From: Bryoerythrophyllum caledonicum | Taxonomy: Eukaryota > Streptophyta > Bryopsida > Pottiales > Pottiaceae | Length of the DNA stretch: 64,000 bases | Reading direction: 5' to 3' | Assembly (NCBI GenBank): GCA_963971425.1 | Contig: OZ020522.1 | Location: 4,934,168-4,998,167, forward strand | Part shown: positions 24,105-64,000 of the stretch, one piece after another | Layout of the letters: every line of letters begins with the position of its first letter | Numbering within the stretch: position 1 is the first letter of the stretch | The notes under the pieces: generated by a model | Databases searched by the model: none | The model's input: only the letters and a program-made list of their open reading frames with translations | What the model was told of the DNA's origin: nothing | Translations under genes and position numbers: made by a program

Positions 24105-24108
24105 TTAA

Positions 24109-32717: not shown

Positions 32718-35700
32718 TTTATCCTCGAGTTGAGGATAAACTCGATGTCTGATATTGTAAACAATATGTAATCCGGCTATTCTAGAGTGTCAGTTGTAGA
32801 TGGTGTCGACGTAAAGCCTGACAAACAAAACCATCTATTAGTCTCACATTATCCTTGAATCGAGGATAAATTCAATGTCTAATATTATGCAAAATCTGTA
32901 ATTCGGCAATTTTGGAGTGTAAGACGTAGAGTATTGACAAAAACGACTATGTATAATTCGCAAATTATCCTCAAGTCAAGAATAAACCATATATAGACCT
33001 ATAGTATTGAAATCAGAGTCTTTACAAAATCAAAGAGCGCTTAGTATCCCTTGTAATTCATAGAATACTAATGCAAGTTATCCTTGAGTCGAGGATAGAT
33101 CTCACCTTCAAGAACTGCACACCAAGATAAATCTTGTGAAGGAGAGAACATTGGAATCATACTACTCAAGTCATACTACTTAATATTATTCTACTTCATC
33201 ACCCGAATTCCTGCATATGTTATATACACATTTTCATGTATGAAAATTGTTGCCTTCGATCATTATTTTTATTTTGTAATATAAAAACTATACTAAAGCT
33301 ATGGAACTAATTTGTTTTAAAGCAAGAGCCAATCCCTAGTTGGATCTATAATAATCAACCATCAGCATCAACATCCACCTTCAATGAAAAACAATTCTTA
33401 TATTTGACGTTTGTACTAAAGTGTAGGAGTTCAGCTCCCTATGCAATGTGATTGCACAGGATTCATATGAATTTGCAAATTCTTGCTTAACCACTCAAGA
33501 AGGTATAGATTTAGAAGGTATCCTTGATTCAAGGATAAAAGTCTCCTAGGTTTTTTAAAGAGCATATAATTAATCTAATAGTTATTCTCAACTCGAGTAT
33601 AATGCTAAGAGTTTGCAGCTGATAAGTGCGTATTTCTCGATTTTGCAGTTGGCATCCACCTCTCTAGAAGATGAGGATAACTACAACTACTCAGCCTTCG
33701 AGATTTTCATCCAAAGGTTTGAAAATCCTTTGGCACCATCCCTGTCCATTGATGATGTTGTAGAAAACTTTGGGTCTCTATGGATGTTCAAAGATACCGT
33801 AAGGAGCTAGTCATTATCAAAGTTTGGGAAGTTTGTGCAAATAATTATAAAGGTAAACAATAAAGTCCCATTTGTGCCTCTCAACATAAACGAGCGGGTG
33901 GCATTTGTTGAGCAGGAGCGACGAGAATACATAGTTCTTGGCATTCAAGCATTTGACAAAGTTGGGGTTGATCAGCCACAAAGCCACTCCATTGTTGTGA
34001 AAGTGGGTACCATACTAGGTCAATTTGATTTCCCCGAATTGCTTGAAAGTGTCATGAGAAACGGGCATGGGTTGATGAGGGAGGCATTTGAAAAGTATAA
34101 GCCCTGGACGAATGATGATGCAGAGAAAGTGAACAAGCGATTGGTTCGAATTCACTAGTTGCGTTTGACATTTGAGGTTCGACTGGTTCCAATCAAAGCC
34201 AATCCACGACAACTACAACGGAGGAAAGCAACTGCCAAGCCTAATCCTTCAGGTTCGACCGCGCCCAAAACCTCAAGTTGTGCTCCTCCCATGCGGCCAT
34301 CGACAACGCTAGCGACACCAGGTGAACCTTTGACCAAGAAGAAGAAGTCCATTGTTGAAGGAAGCTCAACGTCCATTGTTACGAGGGCCACGACTCCAAA
34401 AAAATCACAAAATGACCCGCAGGTGGACTTCCAAAAGATCACGGAATCACAACGCCTGTTCTGGGAGGATTGTAGAGGATGCTTTACGTTTAAATCCTCT
34501 TATTCAATGCAAATCAAGCAGTGTATTGTTGCAAAGGCGCAATACGTGATCCGGGGAATGGAGGAAGTCATTGTATTCAGCACAATGAATTTCCTCGTGC
34601 AGCTTGGCGAAATTAACCAACGCCAAAAGATGTGTATTTGTCCAATTGATACGCATGGCAAGCTAATAAAGACAAAGTCCATTACATGGGATGCCATCAA
34701 GGATGGCAAGTTCATGCTCATCAACGGACAACATAGCGTCGAGGCATCGAAGAGACTTGAGGACAATGAGAATTGTAGGGAGAAGCGCAGGAAATACCTA
34801 TAGCATTGGGATGCATATATAGTTTGGTCAAGAGATCCTCTGAAGTTGTAGAGGATTTCAAAATTTTACAATGACACCAACTACCTTGACCATGCTCAAC
34901 CGACATGGGAGAACCAGATCTCAAGTTGCCGGAGGATTTGGCTTAACTCCGGACGTCCTAGTTACCAACAGGATGAGGGGATAACTCGGAAGAATGGTGT
35001 TGTATTTGATCAACAGAAATACATGGTAAGTTGTCCGTCAAAGATTTATTCTCGAGTCGCGGATACTCATTTGCAATCACATATATTTTTGAAGACCGGA
35101 TACATTCATTCATGTCTTAATGCGTCTTGAGTTGTAATGAGTGCAAGACTTAACAAAGCTCGTTTTTGTGTTTGCAGTTGTTTATGAAGCTCATTGTAAA
35201 CCGCTTCTAGAATATCGATCCCACTAAGGAAGGGAAGCATGTTAGCAAGTCATCAGACCTAACAAATGAGATCAAGGTTATTTCACTTCTTGGTGACATA
35301 TTTAAGTTGTGGAAGGATTTCCTTGAAATGCACACCAGAGGAGAGATTATCAACCTTGACACCATGTCTCCCTACAACAAAGCCACGGAGTGCAGAATCT
35401 CATCCATCCATTGTGAGTTCTTAAAGAGGTTAGGCCATCTTACCAATAATGACTTGAGGGATCTGTTCACCTATTTGGTAAACAACGATCGAGCGTATGG
35501 ATATCCTAAAGTCACTCTCCGTAAAAAGATTGTGGTTCATGGATCTTGCTACCATTACAAGGAATGGGGTGATCGCCAAAAGAAGAAGCGCATTGTCATG
35601 CAGGAATTGATTGCAATTGACCCGTTGTTAAAGTTTTTACTACCAAACGGGTATGTTGACGATGTGGTGTAGAAGTCCTGGAAAGAGGATCACCGCATGT

Positions 35701-36706
35701 CTTTTGCAACGTACAACATGCTTCTTTGTTGTCCTAACAAGGAGTTCTTCTCCTTGAGGCTGACAAATGAGGGGAAGTTAAAGCGAATTCTCACTTGGTG
35801 GAGAAGTTTTCCAATGTTCTTCCATTCTTTAAGAAGTTCTTGTACGTAAAGAGCCGATTCTCTCCACATGATGGTCCCTCTAAACATCGCGACTTTGACG
35901 GGGGAAGAATGGAGTTTGGTGAGTATTTTGAGCCACCAACTAAGGAACGACAGTGGCCTCTTGGTCTGCTTGACCTTCGTCAGGTCCATGGGTGGGCGTC
36001 CAAGGACGGCTTTGCAGAGGAGCCATACTTTTCTGCATTCATGAAGACATTGATGTCCCAAAAGAAGTTCGCCAACCTAAACACTCCAGCTGTTTGGGTT
36101 TGGATCACCTCTTGTTAGGATAGAGCAATGCAAACATTGAAGTATGCAAAGTGATGGATGAAGAAATTCGTATGCATTTCATTTGCATACATGCCATCAG
36201 CATACGAGTGGCTCAACCTAGTAGGAACCTCAAGGTCCAAGTGTTCTGAGGTTTACCTTCTCTTCCTCATTAGAAGTGACCATCCTCAAGCCTCTGTTCT
36301 AGTCAAAAAAGTGTTGCCGTATTACACTACCGTGGATACATCATATTACACGAAGAAGAACAAGTACTTAAAGGCATGCTTCGTTGTCCACAACTCTAAA
36401 TTGCGGATGGAGTTCTACATCAAACTTATTTTGCAGTTTTGCAGCCAAGAGGACAAGGTATTTAGAATTTACTTTGGCTTAAAAAAATTTCTCGCCAGTA
36501 AGGTAATTGTTTATGTTTTCTTTATTGAGTTTATCCTCGGTTCAAGGATAAATTCATTCCTATCGTACGCTATGGTCTCCTGTTGTTACGATTGTGTTTC
36601 TAGTCTACCATGTTCTGGCATGTTCAATATTTTAGTCATCTCTCCTCTTGCAACATTCAAACATACGTGGAAGATTATAAGTTTATCCTCGACCCAAAGA
36701 TAAACT
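32718..36706. repeat. Dispersed palindrome, consensus TATCCTCGAGTCGAGGATA
   Basis: Near-palindromic copies occur at 32718-32740, 32848-32871, 32965-32986, 33078-33099, 33519-33540, 33582-33603, 35045-35067, 36530-36552 and 36681-36706, with a tenth at 42909-42929. Each keeps TTATYCT on the left and a complementary AGGATAAA-like right half around a CTCGAG-like centre, while the DNA between copies is unrelated. All are outside the gene Y coding exons: six upstream, one in the intron at 35026-35177, two in the intron at 36458-36779. The tenth lies in an intron of the hAT relic. Spacing is irregular, so this is not a CRISPR-like array. Function is unknown. Confidence 0.85.
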
Positions 36707-37014
36707 CATGACCATCAACATTTATGTTCTATACTTGTTTCTATTGCTTTTTTAACTTGTTCTATCTTGAATTTTGTAGATGTTTGGAACCTCATTCTAC
36801 GGTGTGATCCACAAGGACTACTAGTTGTCATACAAGTTCAATTCCAAGAGGATTTATGAGTATGACATGAATGATTTCATTCATAAGGATTGTGCGTACG
36901 CTGGATCTTTGCGATCACTGATCGGAGCACTGCAATCTCACGCACCCCACAACACCACTACACCCCGGAGCATCTCAGTCTGCAGGACCTCCCAGACCGG
37001 AGCACGAACTGCCT
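33649..37014 (+). pseudogene. Gene Y: decayed ParB/DGQHR-like multi-exon gene
   Basis: Three exons are supported: 33649-35025 (acceptor TTTTGCAG, donor ATGGTAAGT), 35178-36457 (acceptor TTTGCAG, donor AAGGTATTT) and from 36780 (acceptor TTTTGTAG). The first holds a Lys/Pro/Ser-rich linker and then GKFMLINGQHSVEASKRL, the GQH signature of ParB/sulfiredoxin-like and DGQHR proteins. This is followed by a segment similar to gene X (X: VWTKPDP...LSRALN; Y: VWSRDP...ISKFYN). The rest, to about 36450, is an unrecognised well-formed protein. Interruptions are TAG at 33808, 34156, 34801, 34849, 35208, 35670, 36116 and 36822, one TGA at 36152, and a frameshift near 35790. Upstream exons may be missing. 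A hAT relic follows directly. Activity is unknown. Confidence 0.7.
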
Positions 37015-37796
37015 AGCCAATCGATCCAACAAGGTAGTGCCTTGAAAACCCGAAATGAGGAGAATACGCAATCTACAAATCCTCTAAGCCAAGCGACATC
37101 ATCAACGCCAAGAGTTGTACAACAACGGAGCTTCTCGGAGGCTTATCAACATGAAAAACAAAAAGAATTGGACAAGTATGAGCACAATTTCTTTATGAAG
37201 CAAACATTGCATTCAACGTGGTTAGACATCCTCCCTTTGTTAAGGCTACATAAGCAACGTCAAAGGCGGGTTTTGATTCTTCACGGCCATCGCACAATGC
37301 CATGAGGAGTACACACATTCAACCCCTTTAAAAAAGAGAAAGGACTTGTTGACAAGAAGGCCGGTGTAAATATTGCTAAGTTTGGGGCAACAATATGCTC
37401 GGATGGGTGGGACAATGTTACGCGTTGTCCTCTTACATATATCATGCTTGTATGTTCAATGGATGATATCTTCTTAGGGTCTATAGACACCACGGGTATG
37501 AAGAAATCTAAGGCATATATAGGGGCAGGGTTGTCATACTGGACGGACGTCCAGTTCGCCCGTCCGTCCGATTTGCCCGTCTGGTAGAGCTCTCGCCCGT
37601 CCGATACAGTCAACATAGGGTTGACTTACCTGCAAGGTAAAAAACAGGCGACGTGGCAGCCACGTTTGAACTAAAGTGCTGCCACGCAGGATTTAAACTA
37701 AAAAATGAATAGTTGACAATATAAAATAATATATTAGCCGCAAAGACGTATCCACCCCTAAATGGTAGGGGCGGAGACGTCCCCGCCCCTAAATGG

Positions 37797-38785
37797 CAGG
37801 GGCGGAGACGTCACCGCCCCTCCCCGCCAAATTTAGGAATCAGGATCTTTGAGAGGCCATATCTCACTCAAAAATAGTCCAAATTAAGCGTGTGATATGG
37901 TTTTTGGCATCTACAAAAAATTCGGATGTCAAATCACACCTCAAACGCTTGATTTGGGCTATTTTTGAGTGAGTTATACCCATTCAAACATTCTGACTCC
38001 AAATTTAGGCGGGGAAGAGGCGGGGACGTTAGGGGCGGAGACGTGAGGGCGAGGAATCAACCCTTTGAAGGTTGTAGAGGAAAAAAGTTGGGCAAACTCC
38101 ATTCTCGCCTTGGCAAAGGCCTTCCTCCTTCCCATGCGTTAGAAAAACGATATTTTTAATGTAAATTTAGTTTTCCTTCCAACTTCTAGGGAATGATATG
38201 ATTGCCGTGATGATTGAGGAATGCAAAAATCTTGTCGGAACCAAATATAGCGGCTTTTTGCTCTAAATGATTCTATTGAACTTGAATTAGGAGAAGAAGA
38301 AGAACTACGGTCTTCCAATGGGACCGGCGTGAATGTAGTGTTTGTTCATTCTCTTCACTAAGCATATGGCCACGGGAGATAGGCTAGTGTATAAAGAACT
38401 ACTTCCCCCTCTCGAGGGTAAACACTTTTCCACACTAAGTGCTTTTCTACACTAATTGCATTAAAGATAACCGACATGTCATCTCCCCCAAGGGCTTTGT
38501 GGGTCCCCATACAACGAGGCCGTGGGATCTCCCACCATAATTGGACGGACTATGGTGGTACTTGAATTAGAATGTTGTGTTACGCTATAAACAACAAATT
38601 CTTTTTGACATTTTCAAAGAAGGTAATATTCTTTGCACAAGTGAAACCTCCTTTATTATCAACGGACAAATACCATTGAGCAATGTAATTTTAATGTAAA
38701 GATGTGTTCTTAAATGACTCATCTTGAGGTCATATTCAAATTTATGAAGCATAATGTCGAATCATCCAATGTCCATATATCGCTT
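37797..38785 (+). repeat. Left arm of the fold-back element
   Basis: This block is matched in reverse by 40085-41060 with only scattered differences. It contains GGGGCGGAGACGT-type GC-rich repeats (37770-37830 and 38010-38050), a CTCAAAAATAG / TATTTTTGAG inverted pair near 37870-37970, and a SINE copy. The 64-codon frame at 37965-38159 is mirrored in the right arm (62 of 64 residues identical), which reflects DNA identity and not evidence of a gene. Confidence 0.9.
38291..38559 (-). mobile_element. SINE copy S2 in the left arm
   Basis: A 5'-truncated SINE (269 bp) matching S1 but lacking the tRNA-like head. Perfect 11-bp direct repeats ACTTGAATTAG flank it (38280-38290 and 38560-38570). Its (GAAGAA)n run marks the 3' tail on the minus strand. 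It inserted before the arms of the fold-back element were duplicated, because the other arm carries the same insertion. Confidence 0.88.
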
Positions 38786-38805
38786 GTGTAACAACCCTTT
38801 AACTT

Positions 38806-40074
38806 TACTTTACAAAGGAATTACGCAACTTAACTTTACAAACGAATTATTTAAACATGCAATGAGAGGGAAATATATATATCCTCAAACATAAGGGGTC
38901 ATGTAAACTTCTAACCACGGAGGAAATGTACAAGTTACCCAACAGTAAAATGTCGCATGAGTGCCCCACAATAAATACCCCCTTTTCATCCATTGAGAAA
39001 TAGTGAGAACCTAAATCAGTATAATCTACCATTCAAATTTTGTACCTATTTTTTCCATGATATTTTGTATGTATCAATTACATAGTTCTTTGACATTATA
39101 TCTAATTATATATTACTTATAACCATATTTCACACTTTTAAAGCAATGTATGTTTCATGTACTTTCTATATAAAATTTATCCTAAGTGAATACATTTGCC
39201 CCTATTTCTTTATCGTACGTCGTTTCTACAATTTATGCCAGTGGCCCCTTCGAGATTACTTTTTTTCCCAACTTCCCCAAAAAGTGTAAACGTGCTCTAC
39301 TTGGGATAAAATGTATTTTAACAACAAAGAAAATACTTTGTTTTTGGAATCTTAGAAGAAGGTAATACTCTTTAAATATAAGTATTCTACAATTGAATCC
39401 AATGTTAAGAAGGGGCATGGAAAGATAAACAAAAAAGTTAAGAAACATATAAATAGTTTGCACATGTTAGAGGAAATGTAATAGTTTCCATTTGAACATA
39501 AAGAAATTGACATTCCCAATTTATAAATACGGCATATGTATAGTACAAAACAACGTCAAAATTATATTTATTTAGGAAAAGAATTTCATGCAAACCATAC
39601 AAAGTTCTATCATTATTGTATATAGACATGAGATCAAGAAAGAAGTTAATAGTTATGTCCTATATTGCTAGAAATTTTACTAGAGCTTCTATTGACATTT
39701 ATATTTTTTGTACATCTATATGTATACTAAAAAACATTTGGTCGTGTGTCTCTCCCCTACATCCATAGCTTTTACAATAGACATGTTTAATGTGACCTTT
39801 TAAAGGTGTCACCCTTAGAAGCAAAGCCTTTTGGAGTTTCATCTAACCTTTGCAAAGTTTAATCAATTTAAAGTTAAATTGACACCATTTAGTAAGAAGT
39901 GTTGTGAGAGAACCACTTCGACTTTGGAACATTGTGGCCTTTATAGAATGCTTTTATTTGCATCATCTTTCTTTATGATTGAATAAAGTGATAAATAATC
40001 ATAACCCCAACAATTTAAAGATAGATATTTCATTGACCCTATGGTTATGAAGAGTAATTCGTGGATTGTTCCAA
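38806..40074. other. Loop of the fold-back element
   Basis: About 1.27 kb of AT-rich DNA between the two inverted arms. No open frame longer than about 76 codons and no recognisable domain. It may be remains of a once-autonomous element or captured host DNA. Confidence 0.6.
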
Positions 40075-40084
40075 AGGGGTTGTT

Positions 40085-41060
40085 ACACATTGGATGATTC
40101 GACATTATGCTTCATAAATTTGAATATGACCTCAAGATGAGTCATTTAAGAACACATCTTTACATTAAAATTACATTGCTCAATGGTATTTGTCCGTTGA
40201 CAATAAAGGAGGTTTCGCTTGTGCAAAGAATATTATCTTCTTTGAAAATGTCAAAAAGAATTTGTTGTTTGTAGCGTAACACAACATTCTAATTCAAGTG
40301 CCACCATAGTCCGTCCAATTATGGTGGGAGATCCCACGGCCTCGTTGTATGGGGACCCACAAAGCCCTTGGGGGAGATGACATGTCGGTTATCTTTAATG
40401 CAATTAGTGTAGAAAAGCACTTAGTGTGGAAAAGTGTTTACCCTCGAGAGGGGGAAGTAGTTCTTTATACACTAGCCTATCTCCCGTGGCCATATGCTTA
40501 GTGAAGAGAATGAACAAACACTACATTCACGCCGGTCCCATTGGAAGACCGTAGTTCTTCTTCTTCTCCTAATTCAAGTCCAATAGAATCATTTAGAGCA
40601 AAAAGCCGCTATATTTGGTTCCGACAAGATTTTTGCATTCCTCAATCATCACGGCAATCATATCATTCCCTAGAAGTTGGAAGGAAAACTAAATTTACAT
40701 TAAAAATATCGTTTTTCTAACGCATGGGAAGGAGGAAGGCCTTTGCCAAGGCGAGAATGGAGTTTGCCCAACTTTTTTCCTCTACAACCTTCAAAGGGTT
40801 GATTCCTCGCCCTCACGTCTCCGCCCCTAACGTCCCCGCCTCTTCCCCGCCTAAATTTGGATTCAGAATATTTGAATGGGTATAATTCACTCAAAAATAG
40901 CCCAAATCAAGCGTTTGAGGTGTGATTTGACATCCGAATTTTTTGTAGATGCCAAAAACCATATCACACGTTTAATTTGGACTATTTTTGAGTGAGATAT
41001 GGCCTCTCAAAGATCCTGATTCCAAAATTAGGCGGGGAGGGGCGGTGACGTCTCCGCCCT
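40085..41060 (-). repeat. Right arm of the fold-back element
   Basis: Reverse complement of 37797-38785 with high identity. Small differences (for example AATTTTGG versus AATTTAGG beside the GGGGCGGAGACGT repeats, and KYSESK versus KHSDSK in the mirrored frame) show that the arms have begun to diverge. Confidence 0.9.
40301..40568 (+). mobile_element. SINE copy S3 in the right arm
   Basis: Mirror copy of S2 flanked by CTAATTCAAGT (40290-40300 and 40569-40579), the complement of the S2 target duplication. It is therefore one insertion duplicated with the arm, not an independent event. Confidence 0.88.
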
Positions 41061-42365: not shown

Positions 42366-44888
42366 TGGCTACAAAGCCTTGGTCTCCTTAGTACTCAAAA
42401 ATAATGGAAGTACTCGGGAGAAAAACCGATTTCCTTAAATGCAGTCTCTGTTCCCGCATTTTTGCAAGAAGGCTAGAACTCCAACTTAGTCATCTCGGTT
42501 ACGAAGAAGTCCCTCGCAAGCGCAACAGTGGTGTAGGCATTTGCACCAAATTGGCACCGCATATTCCTAGTCTTTTCAGAAATTGTGCTGGTCATTATCC
42601 TCGACATAACGGAGAGCTTTTCTCTGAACATTGTATCACCCCAACCATGAAAATTGTGTCTTCCGTATAGCATGACACACCTATCTCCACTGGTGAGGAT
42701 TCATGTGTAGGATCTACCCAAGTTCTCCTTGTAGTCTCTGAAACAAATAAGGTTGCATCAACCCCCACCTTTTCCACATCAATCAAATATGGAAGTATGG
42801 TAATATTCATTATTTTGAGACAATTGTAGAGTTTTGAGACTTTCTGCCTATGATTTCAGCAACTGTTTTGAGCTAATTCATGCATTTTATTGACTTTCTA
42901 ATTATAGATTATCCTCGAGTCAAAGATAACTTTCCCAATTATAATAAAAAAATTCAATTAAAAATATAATTTTAATTGAGAAATCGATGACAAATATAAG
43001 ATCAGTATTAAATTGAGAGTGTGAAAAGTCTCAATGTAATGAATATGGCGTTAAATATAGTTGGCACCCTTCCTCGATTGATGAGGAAATTTGTGCTCTC
43101 CAAGGGATTTCAAGAAGTGGAGCAACAAGAGCTAGATAAACTGTGGGCTCGGTTTTTTACGAGTCCAATGTTCCGTTTGCAGTCGCACGGAGTGCTGCAT
43201 TCAAGGAAGTTGTGATGAAGATGGCTGCTTTCAAAAAATCATATGTTCCACCGTCTTACCATGACATTTGAACAAGGTTGTTGGTACAAGCAAAGGCTGA
43301 TTTGGAGGCTGATCTAAATAGTAGAATGGAAGAGAGTGTTCAAAAGTTTGGAGGAACTCTAGTCCTGGATGGATGGAGCTCTATGACTAGTCGCCTTTTG
43401 TGCAAAGCAATGCTTGTTTCTTCTTTGGGAGAGCTTTTCTTGAGATAAGTAGATACCACCGAAAACAAAAAGACCACTGAGTACACATAATCTATTCTTC
43501 AGAAGTTCATTGATCGGGTTGGCCCCCGCAATATTGTTCAAGTGTGTACTGACAATGCGAGTGCAATGCTCAAGGCTGGACGATTAATCACAGAGAAATA
43601 TCCACACATATATGGTCAAGGATGTGCTGCACATGCCATGGGCTTATTGTTGGAGAATTGGCGGAAGATAAAATGGATAAAAGAAGCTCTGGGAAAGGCT
43701 ACGCAGTTGGTGAGGTTTGTGAAGAATTGACAATTGCCCCTTGCAGTGTTTCGTAAACACGAGGCAAAGTTCAGCTTGTTGTTGTCCGGGCCAACTCGAT
43801 TTGCATCCAATTTCATAATGGTGGATGGCTTATTGAAGGTCAAACAAGCGTTAGAGCAAAGTGTTGTTGATCTTGACTGGTTGGCGTATGTCACAAACTT
43901 CCGAGGTGAACGTAAAGTAAATGCACGGACCTTATCTCGGGACATCAAAAGAATTGTTTTAGATGAACGCTTTTGGGAACGATGTACAGACTTTGAGGAG
44001 ATGGTAGCACCTATAATATATGCTTTGAGAAAATTTGATTCCAAAGAATCATATATGGGGAAGGTTTTGGTCATCCTCCACAATCTCGAGAAGCATGTTC
44101 GAGCTCTACGTCGTGAAAAATTCAATCTTAATATCAATATAGCACACTTTGTTGAGCATCACTTCTACCGCCGAAAATGGATGATCACAACCGACTTACA
44201 CTCTGCCGGTGCATTCCTAAATCCCTATTTGCTCCATGACAAAGAATTTGCCGATGATCCAGATGCCATCACCAGGTGTAAACGAGTGCTAAGAAATCTT
44301 TGTACACTTAAGGAATATCCTGACGTGGTTAAGGAGTTCTTAGCTTTTTGAAACATGACTGTATCATTTCATGACATATTAGATCCCAAACTCGAGAAGT
44401 GTTCTCCATATGCTTGGTGGGATTTCAAAGGCGCTTGTGAAAAATTCCTTGTGCCACTTGCCAAGAAAATACTAGCGCAAACGCTATCATCTTCTTGTTG
44501 CGAACACAATTGGAGTAGCTATTCATTTGTGCATAACAAGAGACAAAATAGGTTACTACCTGGAAGGGCAAATGACTTGGTGTTTGTCTATACCAATTCA
44601 AGATTGCTCGCAAATGGAAAATTGACCGATGAGAAGAGGTGGTAAGCGAAAAACTTGGATTTAGAGAACCCCCAAGCCCATGAATCAGATAACTCCAAAG
44701 ACTCCGACAATGCAGATACCGATGTGGGTGCCAACTACAACAATGAATACCTAGACCATGACATTGATGGTGGTCCTCCAAATGCTACCACAAGTATTCA
44801 CCATGCCTTGGGCAATGAGTATGATTTCTCCGATGATGATATTGTTGGAGTAAAAGATGATGATTTGCTGCCATTGCACGATACTTGA
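42366..44888 (+). pseudogene. hAT transposase relic 2 with BED finger, DUF659 and dimerisation region
   Basis: It starts ATGGCTACAAAGCCTTGG. A BED-like finger (KCSLC...RRLELQLSHLG...ICTKLAP) lies in exon 1, then an intron from about 42797 to about 43020 that contains one palindrome. Exon 2 carries PFAVARSAAF, KFGGTLVLDGWSS (first Asp), VQVCTDNASAML (second Asp) and GCAAHAMGLLLE. The hAT dimerisation region follows: SSCCEHNWSSYSFVHNKRQN and LPGRANDLVFVYTNSRLL. An acidic tail (DNSKDSDNADTD) runs to 44888. Interruptions are TAG at about 42390 and 42667, TGA at about 43259, 43728 and 44349, TAA at about 43446, 43487 and 44643, and a frameshift near 43155. Lineage position within hAT is undetermined. 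Confidence 0.85.
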
Positions 44889-44993
44889 ACAGTGATCGCA
44901 TGGTCAATAATAAAAACATCCTTGGAAGTGGACCAACCGCAATTCTGGAACAAATACAAGATGCCAGTCCATGTGAAGGCAATGACATGAAGA

Positions 44994-51755: not shown

Positions 51756-52527
51756 GTATGCATTAGCATACTTTAGGTATAGTCTAGATAAGTGATGTCG
51801 TAGTAGTTGGTTTCAATTTTTTATATCATAATCAATGTTTTAATGTTTTTTTCCAGTAGGATATATGTCAATATTGCGGCCATGACAATATATATACAGA
51901 ATGTATGTTACCTTATTTAGAAATTAAATGTTTTGATTTATTGTGAAATTTATATGAGATGTAAGAAGTGTCGACGAAGTGTGTTTGGTGTGAAATAGCC
52001 TTAAATGCTCAATTCAACTATTTCTGGACTATGAGGTGAATTCTGGACTAAGGACTAAAAGAAAGATCCGGAGATGTGCCTCATAAAAGAGAGTGAAGCG
52101 TAAAAGCCGAGGAGTTTCGAGTACTTTCCAAGCATTAAATGCATCACCAATGACACTTATGAAGGAAGAAATGGTTAGAGCGACCAAATTTGAATTTAGA
52201 CAATACGTGAGTCCGGAACATGCAACCGGATATCTCCGGGTGAATATCAAAGTGGAAACCAGAAGAAGAACCGAGTCCTGAAAACAAAAATTAATGGACA
52301 TACTGTACATCACAAATGTGTGGTTGGGAAACATGTGGTAGGGAAAAATGGGACAGAGATGCGGACAGAAATTACTCGCAATTGATAGAACATGCAACCG
52401 GATATCTCCGGATGAAATCAGAGTAAGAGTCCAGTACTAAACTGTTTCATTATAAGAAAGTGTCATACAAATTATGAAGGGTAGCCGTTGATAAGAGGCG
52501 CGTGTAATCTACGGAGAATCGAATCAA
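51756..52527. other. Spacer with two palindrome variants
   Basis: No gene is supported. Two copies of CCGGATATCTCCGG, a one-base variant of the gene X palindrome, lie at 52226-52239 and 52398-52411. Both follow the phrase CATGCAA (AACATGCAACCGGATATC in each case), so this pair is duplicated over more than the motif itself. Confidence 0.6.
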
Positions 52528-52980
52528 CTATTCTAATTTTAGTGCTTTACAGATGCCCTCTACCCGTCCTGTATGGTGTCTCCCATATGTTAGATAATGA
52601 ACTATAGCCTTTCTAGGATTCTTGAATGGATCTAGATCTGCAACAACAACAGATTTAGGCCACAAATAATGCCTTGTTCTAGGATTAAATGAGGCCTTCT
52701 TAAAGATGTGGAGAAACCTAACATAGCTGGGCCTTCGAGTCTGTTTGCTGGCATAGCAAAAAAGAATATCTGATAAGATGTCTGGGGGCAATAACACTTG
52801 GGCCGCCTCCGTGAGCCTATCTGGACGCATAGGAGACCAGATCCCGACATTGAAATACCGCAGTAGTATTCGAATAACATCTGCGGTGTCATCAAAGGAA
52901 AGCAGCTGCGCGGATCGAGACTTGGCCGAGTCAAGGACCTCGTCCGAGCAGAGAGGACCACGGAGAGATATGATTATGAC
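52528..52980 (-). CDS. Degenerate NIF/FCP1-like HAD domain exon
   Basis: An exon opens after the acceptor CTATTTCGCAG and runs 150 codons to a TAG at 52528-52530. It aligns by eye with the HAD domain at the end of gene X: IIISLRGPLC where X has VVFDLNGVLV, GIWSPMRPDRL where X has SFWSSVLEKNI, and VVVADLDPFKNP where X has VLLVDDTPLKNI. FCP1/NIF phosphatases need Asp-x-Asp in the first motif; here it is Ser-Leu-Arg, so no phosphatase activity is expected. It may be a separate gene, a duplicated tail of gene X, or a relic. The upstream exon was not found. The spacer 52981-53332 holds one palindrome (53072-53085). Confidence 0.5.
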   Translation of the reverse strand, partial: VIIISLRGPLCSDEVLDSAKSRSAQLLSFDDTADVIRILLRYFNVGIWSPMRPDRLTEAAQVLLPPDILSDILFCYASKQTRRPSYVRFLHIFKKASFNPRTRHYLWPKSVVVADLDPFKNPRKAIVHYLTYGRHHTGRVEGICKALKLE

Positions 52981-53332
52981 CTGCGAAATAGATGGCACGA
53001 CCATAGAATTAGAAATTGAACATTGAAAAGAAGAGAAAATATGGTAGGAGGAACTCAAGTCACATCCTGGACCGGAGATCTCCGGGTGCCCCTCTCAGAC
53101 CAACGTTCTGCAGTGGAAATGGTCAGGAGAATACTCAATAGAGTTCACAGATATTAAGGGTGAAGTTTGGGGGCGAGACACCAACAATAACAAATAAAAT
53201 GAAGGACCTCAACAAATAACGTTACTGACAAGAACATTTGTCTTCAAAATTGAAAGGTCAAAATCCGACAGACATTCATGACGAAACATTTACAAAGCAT
53301 AGAGTTAATACTATCCAGTATATTTCATTGTT

Positions 53333-56300
53333 CTAAGGCGCCGAAATTATGCCCTTCACCACGGAGCGAGCCTGAGTGGAATTTTTGTCTACTGGATCAC
53401 TGGCAAACTTCAATTGATTCCGTCTAACAAAGTCGGGAACATCCTCATTTGACGCTAGCAGTCCGGAGAGCCATGGGAGAAACATGGTGGTCAACCAGGC
53501 TTCACCCGAATTCCCAGTCCATGATGGCGGATGAACTGCGCTGAAGGGATTGTTAAGGATGTTCTTTAGTGGGGTATCGTCCACAAGCAAGACATCTTTA
53601 GGAGATGTGGGCGACGCTTTGCTATTATAAACTGTCACGTCCTTTAGGAAAATTGGCTTCTTTGGATGAGATGGAAGCATATATGATGTTTTTGTGCAAT
53701 CGGCCTGTGTCAGGATTCTGGCGCCTTCCGGAATGGTAGCACCTTTCTTGCGCAACTCCTTGATGATATCCACAATATTCTTTTCCAGTACACTGCTCCA
53801 GAATGAGACAGTAGCCTTCTCTCCCACGAAGTTCAGGATTTCAGTGGAACCAGGCCTTACTTTGATGTCTCTCGGTTGTCCCTGTTTAAATTCCCCCCTG
53901 TGCACAAGAACTCCATTTAAGTCAAACACGACATGATAAACCCGTTGTTGTGTTACCTGATCCTCGATTGGAGGCTCTCGGACGATCGTCGTAAACTTCT
54001 TCAGACCTGAACCCAAAATACGAGTACGTCGGCTGAGATGAGGAACTTGTACAGCCTAGAGAAATTGCAAAGATACATATAAAAGTGTCCCGCACTCAGA
54101 ACCCAGAAATTCTGGATGAAAGAATGAGCACTATATAGATGATGGCACGTAAGTATGAATGTCCATATTAGGCACCTGGGACAGTAGGTGTAGTATCCCT
54201 AGAAGTCTGAGCTACACCAGCGACTTCAGCAGTCTGTGCGAGGTTTCTGCCACCGACATCCTTCGACTGTGTTGATCCGGCCGACACCTGAATACCAGTA
54301 ATGTAGTGGTAAGAACACGGTCTGCAGAGAGTGCACTGTCTTGAGAACAATCAAGAAGGTTTGATGGACAAGTAACTGTTCACCTTATCTTTCTGGGCCC
54401 TTGTCCGAACTGTAGGCGGAGGAGGAGGAACTTGCGGCATAGGATTCTTCGCGATTGCCTTCTTCTTCTCTTTTTGAGCCAGCTGCCCGTGGCTCCGTGG
54501 CAGGCTGCGCGGAGGGCTCATAACCTGTAATTCACGCAATGTTTGTTGCGCCGATGCCTCATCCATCGTGTGATCAGTGTCACGCAAAGTCAGGTCCTCG
54601 GCAGTCTTAGACACAACTTCTACTTCAGGACGCGTCGTGAAAGGGTTGTCCAGCGGGAGATCTCCGGGTGCTCTGTGGGTGTGGTCGAACTCCAGGCGAT
54701 CGGACATTGCCGTGTCATCGTCCAGATCTGGCGGAGGAGAACGTTGCCTATCGGAATGCGAATTGGTTTCCATTTGAGAGGGACGCCGTCTACCGTCCAG
54801 AGTAGAGTCGCTTGTTGAACTAGGCGAGGCACGCCTGACTCCAAGATGTGGTTCATCATCGTTTACCTGCAATGGGTTGATTGGGGTGCCCGCACCGATG
54901 ATCCGAGCGGCTGTAGCCAAGGACTCGAGTCTAAAATTGGGAACCGCTGATGAACTTGGTTCATTCCGCACATCAACATCAAGCATCGTGGCATCAGTCG
55001 TCTGCGTCACATTGACAAAGTCAGTGTGGAATACATTAAAACGCAATACGAAATGAAACGGTATCATACACCCGGAGATCTCCGGTTCAAAGTTGTCCGA
55101 GTCTACCGGGGGAACTAAAAATAAACATGGCAATGATAAAGACAAGTCCTAAAGAATGGAGGGCATCCGAATGGAATAAACATCCGGAGATCTCCGGGTC
55201 AGGTAGTATTCGTAGGCGTTATACCTCGCCGGTGTAATTCATCCTCGACATAGCCCGTGTTTGAACCCCAGCGCCTTGGGTCGACTCAGTGATGTCAGTC
55301 TCCACTAACTCCTCAGGATCGGCGTCGGTAACGTCAGCTAAGATATTCAAGTGGAATTTGAATATTTGTTCTGCGCAGGATTCGGCATTTACTTTGGCAT
55401 CTTCGCTGTTCACAATCTCGAGGACCCGCGCGTCGTGAGTCTGCAAACCAAAAAAAACTTAGGACGGCAATATCCAATTCATATAACTGTATGCGGACCG
55501 GAAATCTTAGACATTGGATTGCTTGGGAAGGATGTCTTGCTTACCAAGCCGAGGTATGTAATATGTGGTCCTCCATGAACATTGACGACCACCATACCCT
55601 CTCTGATGTATCCCGTGAACAGCGAATCGCGGACCGAGATCCTCAGCTGTGGGACACCGGTTTGCTTCCAGCGCTGGATGGTTTCTTTATGTTGAGCGGC
55701 TGAAAAGAAGGCCGGCATTTTTTCGGGGTGGCCTTTGAAGAGCCTCTTGAATGACTGAGCAGGCGTCTCGCTTGAATCGTATTCATACAGGAATACGCAG
55801 TATACTGTCTCCTCGACCCCAATTACTGGAACCGGAAATCCATCACCAGGGTGGGGGAAGTAGTAGACGACATGCGTTGCCCACAATTTTACCTTGCCTC
55901 TGGACTCTCTCTGCCGAAGACTGATGTACCTCTTTAATTCAACGAATCCTGCGACGTCAGTGATAAGAACCGACGGTGATCTGACCCTCGTCCGCCCGTC
56001 CTTCGTGTCCACTTCGAGATGGTCGAAAATGGTTCTGAAGTCAAACACATCTAGCACCTGTGCACGGCATATGTCGTCTTTAACGCGGTAAAGGAAAAAG
56101 AAGTAAAAGTGAGGGTCAGTGACGTTACGCCACTGCTGAATGTCCGGCATGATAAGTACTTCGGCGATCTCGCCCCCTCTGTCAGGCATAATCCTGCAGG
56201 TGTATTTGGAGTCGAATAGGGACGTATCATCCGTGGGTGTGGCCTCGGCAGCATCTTCAATGATGTGTTGACTCCAAATGGACACGAGGAAGTCTGGAGT

Positions 56301-59300
56301 GGGGTCGGTATCCTTGTTTATCGCCTTCAGTCGACCCTCAAGCCAAGCTTTACCCTTGGCAGAGTGATTAGCGGCGTCGACCCGGGACTCGAGCTAGACC
56401 CTTCCAATATTCCTGTCTTCGGCAAATGCGTCCCACTGCTCCTTCGTGTATGGGACGAAGTTAGCAGACTTCGAGGGAAGGGGGTGCGACTTGTATTTAA
56501 GCATCAATTCATTCTTCATTGCACGAACTCTCTTCTCTCTGTTCGCCGCGTTTTCGAGAGTCTCCGCCTGCCCTTTCATAGTACCTTGGTTTGCCGCTTT
56601 GGAGGACTTCACACAGACCTTCTTCTCGAGCACTAATTCCGCGAGGTAGTCTAGGTCTTTAGCGCGCATTTTGTAAAGAGGCTTGAAGTCGTTCTGCACC
56701 AGAGGTTTCCGCTTCAGCTTAGTTGGGTCCCCCGTCTTCCCGTTGGAGTCTGGTAAGACTCCAGCGACGAACAGCCTGTCGATTCGGACCCACTTCTGGA
56801 CCACCGCATCATCCATCTCAAATAGAAGTGGGACCTTCGCGTCTTTGGGGTCTATTTTACCGAGGTGTGTAAAACCGTTGGCACCACTTGCCGTTGGAAC
56901 GTCTGCAATGAAAACAATTACAGGGTATAAGCAGCCGGAGATCTCCGGATGATTGGTTTGGTTGCTATAAGGATAGAGCACATCCACGGAATAAAAAATA
57001 TTTTCAGGTTAAGAATGGTTATTTACCGAGAATGCGTCAGATTGAGGACGACCATACAGTTGGGGGGCTGGTTTACCGAACTCAAACCACTTCACTCTGC
57101 ACGTCTGCAGCTGCTCAGTGAAACTCTGCTCCTTCCGCAAACCCGTCAGATCTTGGTTAAGAGCGCGCGAGAGCTGTAGCAGGGTCATGTCTTTGGGGTC
57201 CGGTTTTGTCCAAACCGGGATGATAGAGAAGTGGGAGATCTCTTCGAGCGTCCACGTTGCTGGCAATTCGTGTGACAGAACCTTGTGCGCCGCCACAGTA
57301 TGCTGACCTCCGATAATGTAAAAGTGTGTCGAGTCCCTCAGGCAGTCCTCCTTTGTCGGCTTGGTCGCGAAAAACTCTACCTTACTTCCTTCAGGTTTCT
57401 TCTTCAGTGGCAGGACTCGAATGTGAATCTCAGGTGCCGTGGCCTTCGAAGACGCGCAAACTGCGTTGATAATTCCTTCAAGCCGTTCTTTCTGGATGCC
57501 CCTATATACTAATCCTCCAGGGGGGGCCCGGTGCAGCTTATCGAAATGAACGAGCTTCACGACATCCTTCTTCGTGTCAGGGTCTTCTACTGTCAAAGGC
57601 TTATTATTGTGTATGTAAACGTTTTTGAACGCGTCGTCGAGTACCTTACCAATTGCTTCCACTTCAGTCCGCTTCATTTTGGTGAGGTCAGCCTGTGTGA
57701 AGTTCAGGCACCTTTCGATCGCGAGGCCAGGCTCATCGGCCTTCGCTTTCTTCCCCTTCTCTGCCCGCGATGAAGAACCTGGGGTCGAAGTCTTCAAGGT
57801 TGTCTTGCGTTTTCTTGCCAAGGTCGATGCTGGTGTCAGAGACAAATTGGGAGTTGCGTCTTGAACGGGCATTCGGGACTTCTCTTGTGCTTCAGCCATC
57901 CACTTCCACTGCTCATTCACGTACTCCGGATACCACGTATCACCCGTTGGAGGGGCAAATAAAAAGTTCTCACTCTGGCAGGTCTCCACCATCTCATCCG
58001 AAATCTTAGACGATTCAAGGATCAAGCCGTATATATGTGGCTCGGTGGAGGAGTCCACGTTCTCCTGGACGATAACGAGACTGACCTCGTCATCAAGACC
58101 CTACAACTCGAGAACCTGGAGACCAATGTCGGGGTGACCTCGTTTGCCAATCCGAAGCTGAGGGACGAATTCCCTGGCACCGTCACGGGTTTTAATGAGC
58201 TTGATGCCCCACTGGGTTATGCTCTTTCGGCAATTGTATACGTAGCCGACATTGTGTATCCCTCTGTAGACAAACTCAGGGAGCCAATACTCTACAAATG
58301 CCCCAAGTTTCCCGGGTCGACATTCAGTCGGAAGTGTGGTTGTCCACGAATCCCTGCAAGATGATTTTGAAAGAACAGGCAGGAAGTTTAGAATCGATGC
58401 AATTGTCTGGTCAATAACAAGAATCCGAAACAAAATCACCTGACAAGTTCCTAGATGTTGAAACCATGAATCGTGCTTCCAAATCTGTATCACAGTGCCA
58501 TCAGAGGACAGTACCCGGAGATCTCCGGCTGATTTGGGGAAGTCGAGTGCATCCGACAAGGAACAAATCCTGGCTGCTCTGACGGGTCTATTTCTGACCT
58601 GAATCGGAGATCTCCGGTTAATGACCCCTCAACGCGAATTTCCACTGTTTCGATACGTCCGAAGATCTCCGGCTGCTTTCGAGAATAACTAACGCCTGTA
58701 TAGGGAATACATATTCATCTGATCGCTACATCATCCGGAGAACTCCGGCTGATTACTGGAACTCCGTATTTTCAGCCGGAGATCTCCGGCAGAAGCACGT
58801 ACGGCACTTCGAAGCACTAATCGGATCATATCAGGACTCAAATATTTACATTCATTTACAGAGAGGTTTGACGTGTAACTCTTGAAGTTTGACATACTTA
58901 AATAACAAGTTACATAATTGAGAACATAAATATATGTATCAAATGAGCTCACACAATTCTGTTACAGCTCGACCTTACACACTAGAAGAAGAATCCGCTA
59001 ATGTTTCGATGGAACGCCAAATTTGACGACTCTACATGAATTTAACTATATACATTGAATCGAACCAGACTCGACAGACTCAGTGAGGAAAAACACATTC
59101 AAACATTCCTGGAATTCCAAAATCATTCGCATATTCATGAATAGATATACAAATATGTTCACGGGACAACAAAAAACCAATCGACTATAGCCAAACAGAC
59201 AGCTGAATTCTAGTACGCAATTTTTGAGGTTTTTCAAAATCATTCAAGTGTTCGTCCACTCCGAAATTAGAACTAATTCGGAACTCACTCAAAAAAAGGA

Positions 59301-59452
59301 AACCCACCTAGTCGCCCGGACTGAGCATAAACAGTTCGATTGTGTATACTTACCGGTTTCCATCCCACGCAGTCTCATCCGACGTCGCTGTTGTAGTCGC
59401 CATTTCGCAATCTCCTCCAGTAACTGCTCTGGATTAAAGCGTATACACAACT
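53333..59452 (-). CDS. Gene X: ParB/DGQHR-like protein with C-terminal NIF-type HAD domain
   Basis: Coding exons by eye: 59403-59354 (ATG in CGAAATGGCG), 58353-57053, 56902-55545, 55440-55225, 55001-54384, 54287-54176 and 54006-53333. All phases agree, giving 1442 residues. A leader exon probably ends at 59801 and is spliced to 59452. Residues ~250-420 resemble the ParB/sulfiredoxin fold: IIGGQHTVAAHKVL (GQH 366-368), then SIIPVW and LLQLSRALNQD. A basic linker (RKRK, KGKKAK) precedes it, and a Ser/Pro/Asp-rich region lies in exon 5. Residues ~1240-1440 are a FCP1/NIF HAD domain with DLNGVLVHR (Asp-x-Asn instead of Asp-x-Asp), SFWSS and LVDDTPLKN. TAG interrupts codons 101 (58101) and 620 (56394); the terminal codon is also TAG. 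Exon 2 could alternatively use the stronger donor GTAAAT at 57026, but that breaks the frame. Biological role unknown. Confidence 0.7.
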
Positions 59453-59620
59453 CTGCAGTACATAAGCATTCAACAACTCAGAACGACAAACTATACAATC
59501 TCTCAAATGCCCTAGAATGTATGGTCCAGTTCTAACATACAGGAATTCGGTGGAATAAATTTCAACATTGCATAAATTGCTCAATTACGGCCCTTCGAAA
59601 CTGAATGCACAGAACACTAG

Positions 59621-59640
59621 AACCCTAAACCCTAAACCCT
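59621..59640 (+). repeat. Short telomere-type tract
   Basis: AACCCTAAACCCTAAACCCT lies within the proposed leader intron of gene X. CCCTAAA is the plant-type telomere unit, also known as a telo-box when short and near promoters of highly expressed plant genes. Either reading is possible. Confidence 0.7.
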
Positions 59641-59800
59641 TCTATTTCGCTCAAACGGTTATCAACATCAGTACTATTTGACTCTCTCGAACCCTAATGA
59701 AGCTTACCGAACCCTACACCTGCTCCAGTGACAATTCTATGAAGTCCTGTGCAAATTCAACTGAAATTTCACTGAAAGCCATTTTTGAGACTTTACATAC

Positions 59801-59950
59801 CTCTTCACTTGCCGAATCGGCGCACCCGTACGTCGTGGTCGTTCGTGTTGACGCCACCCTCAACCGCAACGTCGTTCACTCTTGGCTGCTGAACCTAGGC
59901 GCTCTTCAACTCTCTTCCTAACGCATTCGCTCTCTTTCAGCCCTACTCTC
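59801..59950 (-). promoter_or_regulatory. Probable 5' leader exon of gene X
   Basis: The minus strand ends at a strong donor GAAGAG/GTATGTAAA (boundary 59801), and an acceptor CTGCAG/AGTTG at 59452 lies before the ATG at 59403. A 5'-UTR intron of about 348 bp is therefore likely. The transcription start and core promoter were not identified; the upstream end is arbitrary. CT-rich sequence at 59930-60010 might be part of the promoter. Confidence 0.4.
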
Positions 59951-60469
59951 TGACCTTCAGTCCATATCCAGTTAACAACCTCTCCACGGCACGCTCAACG
60001 TCCCTCACATAAATCAACACTCACCTCGCACACCAACGGCCTCTCACAGCGCATACGAAACTAACCTAATGCATCGACGCCGACTCCGCAAACCAAGAAA
60101 GAAAACCCCTCCCGCCACTTCCGCTCACTACCTTCGACATTACGAAGACAAAAGCCAAAAAAATCAAGAAATGGTTCATTCTTGGAGTTCCCAAAACCCA
60201 AAGAGGACAAGCTGGACGGCTCAAGGGTGTGACGGCTCATGATGACAGTGGGTGAAGTTAAAAATCAGTTGAAATGACATACATGTACAACGTGTCCATT
60301 TCACAATCATGACATTGTCAATGTCGTGAGCATGCGTGAGAAGACGTATTGATACCCGGTTTCATAGGTATTAGATATGACTATAATAGATACTCGGGTT
60401 CACCGGGTATTAGAGTAATAATTATACTTGAATTTAAAACGACATTAGTGGAAAAGCTGAATCTCCCTT

Positions 60470-62160
60470 TCCGTTACTCTCCCTCCCTTCTTTCCCTCAC
60501 TTGTTTTTCTTATTTTTGTTCTACTCTCCCCTCCTTCTCCATCTCCATCTCTTTTTTAATCTTGATTCTAATATTTTTTAGACTCCCCGTGAGTTCAATA
60601 ATTACACATTCTTAAATTAACTTACCACTCTAAAAAAATCCCTTACTCTCCCTCTCTTACTCTTCCTCTCTCTTACTCTCCCTCCCCATCTCTTTTTTAC
60701 ATTTGATTTTATTTTTAAATTCTCCTTATTACATATTCTAAAAATATAAACTACTCTAAAAGTAAATCCCTCAAGTCTCTCTCTCTCTTACTCTCCCTCC
60801 CTTACTCTCCCTCCTACATGTTTATTTATTCATTTTAGTTTTACTCTCCCCTCTTTCTCAATCTCCATCCTTAGTTAATAATATTGAACTATTGTAATAG
60901 TATTTTTCTACTATCCTATTCTTTCCCTCACTTGTTTTTCTTATTTTTGTTTTACTCTCCCCTCCTTCTCCATCTCCATCTCTTTTTTAATCTTGATTCT
61001 AATATTTTTTAGACTCCCCGTGATTTCAATAATTACACATTCTATAATTAACTTACTACTCTAAAAGAATCCCTTACTCTCCCTATTTTACTCTTCCTCG
61101 CCCTTACTCTCCCTCCCCATCTCTTTTTTACATTTGATTTTCTTTTTAGATTCCCCTTATTACATATTCTAAAAATATAAACTACTCTAAAAATAAATCC
61201 CTCAAGTCTCTCTCTCTCTTACTGTCCTTTATGTCCCTTCTTTACTCTCCCTCCTACTTATTTTTTACTTATTTTAGTTTTACTCTCCCCACCTTCTCCA
61301 TCTTCATCTCTATTTTACTTTTGAATTTTTAAATTTTTGGATTTCTCCTTATTTCAATAAATTCACATTCTAAAAATAATGAACTACTCTTTAAAACAAT
61401 CCCGCACTCTTCCTCGCCTACTCTCCCTAGTATCCCTTACTTTCCCTATCCCTTACTCTCCCTCCCTTACTCTCCCTATCCCTTACTCTCCCTCTCCATC
61501 TCTTTTTTACATTTTATTTTATTTTTAGATTCCTCTTATTACATATTCTAAAAATATAAACCACTCTAAAAGTAAATCCCTCAAGTCTCTCTCTCTCTTA
61601 CTCTCCCTTCCTTACTCTCCCTCCTACATGTTTATTTATTCATTTTAGTTTTACTCTCCCCTCCTTCTCAATCTCCATCCTTAGTTAATAATATTGAACT
61701 ATTGTAATAGTATTTTTCTACTATCCTATTCTTTCCCTCACTTGTTTTTCTTATTTTTGTTTTACTCTCCCCTCCTTCTCCATCTCCATCTTTTTTTTAA
61801 TCTTGATTCTAATATTTTTTAGACTCCTCGTGATTTCAATACTTACACATTCTATAATTAACTTACTACTCTAAAAGAATCCCTTACTCTCCCTATTTTA
61901 CTCTTCCTCTCCCTTACTCTCCCTCCCCATCTCTTTTTTACATTTGATTTTCTTTTTAGATTCCCCTTATTACATATTCTAAAAATATAAACTACTCTAA
62001 AAATAAATCCCTCAAGTCTCTCCCTCCCTCCCTAACTCTCCCTCATACTTGTTTATTTATTTATTTTAGTTTTACTCTCCTTATTTTATCTCAATCTCCA
62101 TCCTTAGTTAATAATATTGAACTATTGTAATAGTATTTTTTTTTCTATCCCATTGTATTA
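60470..62160. repeat. Pyrimidine-rich satellite-like array
   Basis: Blocks of TTACTCTCCCTCC-like sequence alternate with fixed phrases. TTAGTTAATAATATTGAACT begins at 60871, 61681 and 62104. The phrase CTCACTTGTTTTTCTTATTT occurs near 60495, 60927 and 61738. The TTTTAGTTTTACTCTCC phrase recurs near 60834, 61275, 61644 and 62066. The spacing gives monomers of about 370-440 bp and a higher-order step of about 810 bp. One strand is strongly C/T rich. No coding potential. Confidence 0.8.
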
Positions 62161-62244
62161 CATTATTCAAATTAATGCATAGGTTTCAAATATATATTCA
62201 TATTTTATGTAGATTGTTGTTACCTTTTTTCTTAAATACTTTGT

Positions 62245-62517
62245 GATATAAAAACTACATGAAAATGGTTGATTTAATGTGTTGCAAACCAAGCGCCAAC
62301 TCCTAGTCATACTACTAAAATCATAATTTGCGCAGTAAACCACAGAGTGAACTATCACGTGATCAACCATGCAGTGAACTACAAAAACGCTACAATCAAC
62401 TGCGTTGTCAACAATGTAGTGAACCATTCCACCTTTTACTTTTTAATACTTTTTAATATTATAAATACATAAAAATGGTTGGGCTAATGCATTGCAAAGC
62501 AAGCGCCAACAGCTAGT
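62245..62517 (+). repeat. Pair of direct repeats, ~55 bp, 217 bp apart
   Basis: AAAATGGTTGATTTAATGTG followed by TTGCAAACCAAGCGCCAACTCC near 62260-62302 is repeated with changes as AAAATGGTTGGGCTAATGC and TTGCAAAGCAAGCGCCAAC near 62474-62512. Between them are several GTGAACTA-like phrases. No family is recognised. Confidence 0.6.
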
Positions 62518-62793
62518 CTACTCTAAAATTAAATCCATTACCCTCCTTCTCTTCTTTATTCTATCTCTAAATAAATTATAATGTATCAAAATAAATAGTT
62601 ATTGTTCAATTCTCGCTAAATTTCCTTACACTCTATAGTATCCAGGATTTTTTTAAAAGTTATGGTTATCGATAAACTTAAGGTTATAGTTCATAGTTAT
62701 AAAATATTTTTAATTTATACATTTATAGGTGATATAAGCCCTCAACCTTCATGAACTCAGACCCCTCCACGGTGAACCGTGAACCCTGAATCC

Positions 62794-62911
62794 TTAACCC
62801 TAAACCCTAAAACCGTGAACTAGAAACCGTGAACTCTAAACCCTACACCGTGAAAACCATGAACCCTAAAACCTAAACCCTAAAACCCTAAACCCTAAAC
62901 CCTAAAACCCT
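62794..62911 (+). repeat. Degenerate interstitial telomere-like repeats
   Basis: About 118 bp of CCCTAAA, CCCTAAAA and related units are mixed with ACCGTGAA phrases, purest at 62870-62905. This is the plant-type telomere unit. The degeneracy shows an old interstitial tract, not a chromosome end. Confidence 0.8.
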
Positions 62912-62919
62912 GATGCACA

Positions 62920-64000
62920 ATCCAGCCTGAACACGGAAGCTGTACCCGAATTCATAGGACCGGGTTGTTGTACTTCTAAAAGCATCTGCTCAGTTATTTG
63001 TGCACGTTTCTTCTCAAGCATGCATATAACTTCTGTCGAACTAGGAAATATTGGAGATTATTCTAATTGGTAACGAACGCCGATGTTCTACTTGAGTCTT
63101 GTATTGCCTGATGAACAATACTAGTAGGCAACAGAGGGCCGTCTCCTTTCCTTGGGAAGGGTATAATTTAATTAACAAAGGTGAGTACGAGAAGTCCTGT
63201 ACGATTACAATTTACTGTGATTTAGTCTAAGACGTGATACGGCCCTAGTATATTCAAAGATACATCATGGGGCATACTTCATCATCCGTTTTCAAATTTG
63301 CAGCACTCTAGGAACTAGATGGTATCCTTACAATACGGTCATCCCATGAGTACGAGCCTTTCATTATCATGAGTGGAATGTGGCCTCGGTCGTGGGCACG
63401 TCGAAGAATGTGCACAATCATGATGGTGTACAACAGTTAGTTTGAAGGAGCATGCATGCCCAAGATTCGTTTCAAATTTGAGCGCCTGAATTTTCCCTCC
63501 ACGAGCTGATGGAAAGGTGGATAAGAGTATCCTTCAACTCAGCTCTCATCCTTTTTTGCTCTGGATGTTTGAGATACTATGGGAGCTGAGCGAGTCAGTG
63601 ATAGTGTTCGCTTGCGCGACATCGTGCTAGATAACTGTAGGGAAACGAATCGACATTATTCCAGGAATGTTAAGTATGTTCCCTCGTATAATTCCGTATT
63701 CGCTGTCTGTCTGTGAGGATTGGTGTAGATTGTGTTGCATTCTGTCCTCTGAGTCGATCGGGAGCTCTCGTGTAGAGATTTTTAAACTAATTCGTCTCCG
63801 AAGATACAGTCATAGCCCTGAAGCAGTAAATTTAGTCGACTCGAGTATATAGATGACGTAATTGCTTGGCGTGTGAATCCGAACTGTTAACCGGGTTTTG
63901 CAACTGTATCACACCGCCATACCCGCGAATATTCCGTACGGCTGTTGATTCGATCAAGGCCAAAAAACTCAACCGGAGATCTCCGGCTGTTCATGCCGTA
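62920..64000. other. Right edge without a secure gene
   Basis: Composition resembles the gene X neighbourhood, and one perfect CCGGAGATCTCCGG followed by CTG lies at 63973-63986. A possible acceptor TTTGCAG occurs at about 63297-63303. The frame at 63667-63852 has no domain. Another gene of the X type may begin beyond the window. Confidence 0.35.

Follow-up and report, generated by a model that had tools for sequence, protein, structure and literature searches.

The 64-kb window analysed here, the whole stretch C10:4934168-4998167 of a 437-Mb, mobile-element-rich eukaryotic genome, holds two homologous genes, X and Y, each amid copies of its own short palindrome. A plant-like host would agree with the introns, the DUF659-type hAT remains and the CAG/CTG depletion. 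Gene X lies on the minus strand in a DNA transposon that runs out of the window, and gene Y is a decayed copy. A first-pass annotation had taken the pair for a ParB/DGQHR-like gene family; the homology it saw between them stands, with the GQH signature and its flanking text (tblastn E=1.2e-4, 28% over ~100 amino acids, the region taking in GQH, VW..DP, LSRALN/ISKFYN and CR..W...G[KR]P), but both are transposon genes. The features of the two genes and of the X element are as follows.

33652..35025, plus strand: first exon of gene Y, start approximate; decayed, with four in-frame TAG codons
34726..34740, plus strand: GQHSV motif of gene Y, read from the sequence
35179..36460, plus strand: second exon of gene Y, approximate; decayed and frameshifted
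52001..52004, no strand: TTAA target-site duplication at the in-window end of the element; ttaa flanks the window copy (W) on both sides
52005..64000, minus strand: part of the X transposon; whole copy at about C10:4986172-5003887, computed from the alignment
52005..52029, minus strand: terminal inverted repeat, ATGC....CAACTATTTCTGGAC, from comparison of copy ends
52531..52979, minus strand: open frame at the 3' end of the X transcription unit, approximate
53336..54055, minus strand: NIF phosphatase-like open frame (PF03031, E=2e-12), candidate part of gene X or third gene
54354..55148, minus strand: open frame, probably gene X exon(s)
55560..56892, minus strand: further exon of gene X, approximate, from the open frame
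57027..58353, minus strand: gene X exon with the GQH domain; donor uncertain, 57027 or 57053
57294..57308, minus strand: GQHTV motif of gene X, read from the sequence
59354..59403, minus strand: first exon of gene X, ATG to donor GTAAGT, by eye

Nine further copies of the X element were fetched, and ends were compared in the eight copies, W included, that have both; c7_13 and c873, each with one end outside the fetched stretch, were excluded. Read by eye, the element starts with ATGC and ends with GCAT (ATGT and TCAT in one and the same copy), and identical 4-bp duplications flank all eight copies: TTAA, AAAT, ATGA, CAAA, TTGG, CAAT, TTGT and CCTA. The X element, to which this comparison applies, joins inverted ends to a target duplication of fixed length, as a terminal inverted repeat DNA transposon does. 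The window copy extends beyond the window and ends near C10:5003887, copy c1_42 measures ~16.95 kb, and an internal repeat of ~424 bp varies in number between copies. Seven of the nine other copies (W, c12_12, c1_55, c14_22, c2_85, c11_20 and c1_15) align with c1_42, as query or as target, along most of their length at ~96-99% DNA identity; c873 matches it at 86%, and the matches listed for c7_13 are those of its repeats. A genome search with X returned 1314 candidate copies, of which 150 were scored, at 87-100%. The target duplication of Sola-type transposons is 4 bp long, and the X element resembles Sola and other DNA transposons in this length and in its inverted ends. Sola appears in the superfamily list of PMC4455052.

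Gene X runs from its first exon (59403-59354) through open frames down to 52531, and c1_42 carries large frames of 590 and 479 amino acids on this, the right, side. The GQH coding sequence is under purifying selection: in a diverged X copy its codons show 93.5% amino acid identity at a synonymous divergence (dS) of 0.41, with omega 0.07. The NIF/SCP-type phosphatase-like domain reads DLNGV at the position of the catalytic motif; its frame is also open in c1_42, and no such domain was seen by eye in Y. Two TAG codons interrupt the window copy: one at 58103-58101 in the GQH exon, replaced by a sense codon in the copy at C1:42222329, and one at 56396-56394 in the further exon, likewise a sense codon in c1_42. 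The in-frame stops of gene Y are likewise mostly TAG, one of them common to another Y locus. Reading TAG as a sense codon was considered and rejected, since neither X position is a stop in another X copy and also because CAG/CTG is depleted in half of the window's 8-kb blocks (0.32-0.57 of expectation in four of eight, 0.84-0.98 in the two that hold X), a pattern such as decay through CHG methylation outside X would leave.

A genome search with Y gave 1597 candidates, of which 150 were scored, at 68-99%, with stop-free frames of 488-682 amino acids among them. In all eight fetched Y loci, at 69-79% amino acid identity, the Y palindrome precedes the gene, and each 2.6-kb stretch contains between one and six exact copies of it. 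Synonymous sites are near saturation in 20 of 21 pairs of Y copies (proportion of synonymous differences, pS, 0.68-0.86; 0.39 in one close pair), and nonsynonymous divergence (dN) is 0.02-0.22 over all 21; the palindrome is kept. An intact-looking, intron-bearing Y gene, 73-80% identical to the six Y copies compared, lies with five Y-type palindromes, three of them exact, on a 4.2-kb contig from another sample (L164, CADCWO010000074.1), which is filed in a cyanobacterial assembly (AVDCRST_MAG81) and is probably eukaryotic contamination there. Searches of viral sequences found no relatives of the GQH protein. Weak matches to DUF3944 (E=0.0012, second Y exon) and phrog_14271 (E=0.005, first Y exon), below curated cut-offs where these exist, were set aside.

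The partner gene of the X element lies on its left side, divergent from gene X, where a 650-amino-acid minus-strand frame in c1_42, the one copy tested, carries DUF7869 (E=2.6e-44). Its product is likely the transposase, judging from sequence; its acidic motifs are read by eye, no match was found among PDB sequences, and DUF7869 goes unmentioned in the literature searched. Upstream of another Y copy, in stretch L159, a divergent 392-amino-acid frame is homologous to this gene (28%, E=2e-23, and 34%, E=1e-20). Pfam gave no DUF7869 match in that frame, the fetched stretch having stopped before the DUF7869 core, and no DNA similarity was found between L159 and X. The layout of Y elements varies, since at C6, C361 and C845 the DUF7869 match lies ~7 kb from the Y copy and is convergent with it, whereas the frame in L159 is divergent. 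The X and Y elements are best read as two clades of a single type of two-gene DNA transposon. Within the window, tblastn found neither a Y-type nor an X-type transposase. The hAT pieces 3' of gene Y were considered as the Y transposase and rejected, because another Y element has a homologue of the X DUF7869 gene; these remains (DUF659, Dimer_Tnp_hAT) span 37306-44642 and hold an insert with 973-nt inverted arms at 37800-38772 and 40087-41059.

The palindromes, located by a site search and listed here without strand, are these.

32720..32738: Y palindrome
32850..32868: Y palindrome
32966..32984: Y palindrome, decayed
33079..33097: Y palindrome
33519..33537: Y palindrome
33583..33601: Y palindrome, decayed
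35047..35065: Y palindrome, intron 1
36532..36550: Y palindrome, later intron
36684..36702: Y palindrome, later intron, decayed
42910..42928: Y palindrome amid hAT debris
52226..52239: X palindrome CCGGATATCTCCGG
52398..52411: X palindrome CCGGATATCTCCGG
53072..53085: X palindrome, exact
54654..54667: X palindrome-like site, coding (also from the exon model)
55072..55085: X palindrome, exact
55184..55197: X palindrome, exact
56935..56948: X palindrome, exact, intron
58515..58528: X palindrome, exact, first intron
58604..58617: X palindrome, one mismatch, first intron
58659..58672: X palindrome, one mismatch, first intron
58735..58748: X palindrome, one mismatch, first intron
58776..58789: X palindrome, exact, first intron
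63973..63986: X palindrome, exact, transposase side of the element (also from the alignment)

The counts first reported, thirteen around gene X and ten around gene Y, were recovered. All 13 X sites at no more than two mismatches lie within 52226-63986, with 0.08 expected by chance, and 12 of them are non-coding under the approximate exon model, 54654 being coding. Ten distinct Y sites occur at no more than three mismatches, nine at 32720-36702 plus that at 42910; two more at four mismatches (53959 and 63831) are near chance (shuffle mean 0.2, largest 1). Over all 12 Y sites, 11 of 28 mismatches are transitions at the two CpGs, which make up 4 of the 18 scored positions, so the sites seem to have decayed from a perfect palindrome. 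Sites of both kinds are mainly in introns, upstream and intergenic DNA, and their symmetry suggests a dimeric reader.

Genome-wide, the exact X word occurs 2718 times, against 3 for its reversed-word control, and the exact Y word 867 times, against 0. Among the first 50 listed of each word, all on contig C1, 27 X and 26 Y sites have a listed gene copy no more than 12 kb away, where ~1 each would be expected. The remaining 23 X sites have spacings wholly or largely like those of the element; 24 Y sites are not near a listed copy. That each paralogue has a distinct palindrome is borne out by a crossover comparison: of 20 stretches fetched at X loci, 18 have the exact X motif and none the exact Y motif, and of 11 fetched at Y loci, 10 have the exact Y motif and none the exact X motif (L157, among those compared, also holds a Z copy). 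Four other stretches, L160-L163, have neither. The sites are also conserved: the diverged X copy retains every palindrome base at eight sites (112 of 112), against 314 of 463 (67.8%) in flanks within 40 bases, and from the other side of the same pair 112 of 126, against 51%. An earlier figure of 89.5% against 41.5% is partly circular, the sites having been defined by matching, and the 112/112 comparison is fairer.

Other palindromes were met along the way. In viral contigs, CCGGAGATCTCCGG forms no clusters (at least 120 stretches, with one site each in the 80 listed), and such single sites are what chance would give in phage DNA. Beside a DUF7869 gene, L162:2525-2667 holds a 24-bp palindrome, GAGGGGTCGAGGCCTCGACCCCTC, whose 18-bp core occurs 369 times genome-wide against 0 for the control; it is not counted as marking a third clade, since most of the sites listed form close pairs (often 57-61 bp) that recur in tandem or at either end of units 5-15 kb long, as in long terminal repeat elements. 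A single perfect 18-bp palindrome, TGCACTTGGCCAAGTGCA, at L160:6628-6645 and at a C11 locus (yelem 15305-15322), lies ~23 bp from where two Z copies stop being similar, a possible end hairpin.

Elsewhere in the window are a minus-strand LINE-like element (10480-17844), which matches reverse transcriptase weakly and encodes a long run of glutamines followed by a GDIETNPGP 2A-like peptide, and, at 4474-5916 on the minus strand, a piggyBac-type transposase (DDE_Tnp_1_7) split by TAG codons. A repeat family common to the window and to Y and Z loci occurs at 1531-2373, 8129-9758, 23606-24109 and 30920-31471, and outside it at L159:5205-6773 and at 353-2534 of L161 and L160.

Transposons with a second, DNA-binding protein offer parallels. 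TnpA, the second protein of the CACTA element Spm/En, binds short repeated sites in its own element, as the GQH protein may, although its sites are subterminal and not palindromic. VANDAL elements pair a Mutator-like transposase with a VANC-family protein; here the transposase-like gene encodes a DUF7869 protein, and neither the X nor the Y GQH frames have a significant Pfam match. As described in PMC5735166 and PMC10398659, Arabidopsis VANDAL transposons, like X and Y, encode a companion protein, VANC, and VANC proteins bind short, family-specific non-coding motifs and remove methylation. The motif recurs across the non-coding DNA of the element, introns and intergenic parts included, and differs per family, as it does in X and Y, and protein and motif evolve together, to which the X and Y pairs may be likened. 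In the same accounts, the motifs of VANC21 are nine bases long, all point the same way and often sit in tandem repeats, whereas the X and Y sites are 14-19-bp palindromes, many in unrelated flanks, and anti-silencing is demonstrated for VANC, whereas for X and Y it is proposed by analogy.

With the elements, their copy number and ends, the gene pairing, purifying selection, and the private palindromes and their conservation established, we infer that the GQH protein rather than the transposase binds the sites and that binding affects silencing. By analogy with VANC, the palindromes are most likely read by the GQH protein, whose most likely task is to keep the element expressed. A two-gene element would encode the DUF7869 protein, likely the transposase, and a usually divergently transcribed GQH protein; each clade's GQH protein would recognise that clade's palindrome in promoters, introns and intergenic DNA outside the terminal repeats. 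Once bound, it would act on the chromatin and promoters of its own family, keeping both genes expressed by anti-silencing or trans-activation, and protein and site would diverge together, so that each family frees itself alone. The near-expected CAG/CTG content of the two blocks with X, beside the depletion in other blocks, agrees with such a role. Taken as a whole, this proposal stands about evenly poised between right and wrong.

It is unlikely that the palindromes are instead internal or subterminal binding sites of the DUF7869 transposase, serving transposition, with the GQH protein in another role. In its favour, both clades have a transposase, which has diverged between them; two X sites are 221 and 393 bp away from the right end, and in eight copies a half-site (ATCTCCGG) is found ~70 bp inside that end. 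Yet the full motif is absent from the inverted terminal repeats, the first exact site of c1_42 is ~1.6 kb from the left end, and the GQH gene's introns and upstream region contain most of the sites. Placement in those introns and that upstream region, with sites close to the transposase gene as well, would also suit a self-limiting repressor or copy-number sensor that shuts the element down, but large families of near-identical copies argue against strong self-limitation and make such a role rather unlikely. Capture of a host factor's sites as promoter or enhancer elements would agree with their non-coding position. It is improbable, because homologous elements use two unrelated words, both far exceeding reversed controls, and because the 50 listed X sites lie near X copies (27) or have X-like spacing (23). 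Some upstream Y sites do stand, by eye, in tandem-like repeats, as passive hairpin or repeat debris would, but perfect conservation against 68% in flanks at dS 0.41, and retention at Y loci despite near-saturated synonymous divergence, leave functionless debris highly improbable.

ParB proteins carry a GERR motif and DGQHR/sulfiredoxin-fold proteins a DGQHR motif. The first-pass annotation's suggestion of a ParB- or DGQHR-like protein with its own sites survives as to the selfish element, a transposon, and the private palindromes, but not as to profile homology: profile searches gave no hit to the family, and hhalign gave a probability of 0.2% and E 0.37, with 2 of 30 shuffles at lower E. In an alignment read by eye the protein has GQH where ParB has GERR, then an A-rich helix-like stretch and a later invariant N; it differs in lacking the arginine of the conserved GxxR P-motif (GQH[STI]V in 10 of 10 aligned sequences) and in belonging to a eukaryotic transposon. 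Palindromic sites near the gene are common to ParB-parS (PMC12704722) and to X and Y. That a ParB-like transposon protein loads at its own palindromes, spreads as a clamp and shields the element from methylation, with private parS-like sites per clade, is quite unlikely; if true, it would be a second, independent invention of sequence-specific anti-silencing.

Of the transposons that escape silencing through a protein-motif pair of their own, VANC/VANDAL comes nearest in the literature searched. If the GQH protein does keep its own family expressed through its palindromes, X and Y would be a second such case, in another transposon type, with an apparently unrelated protein and palindromic sites, and the strategy would have arisen more than once. 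They would also provide naturally diverged protein-site pairs, in many intact-looking copies, for testing how recognition evolves.

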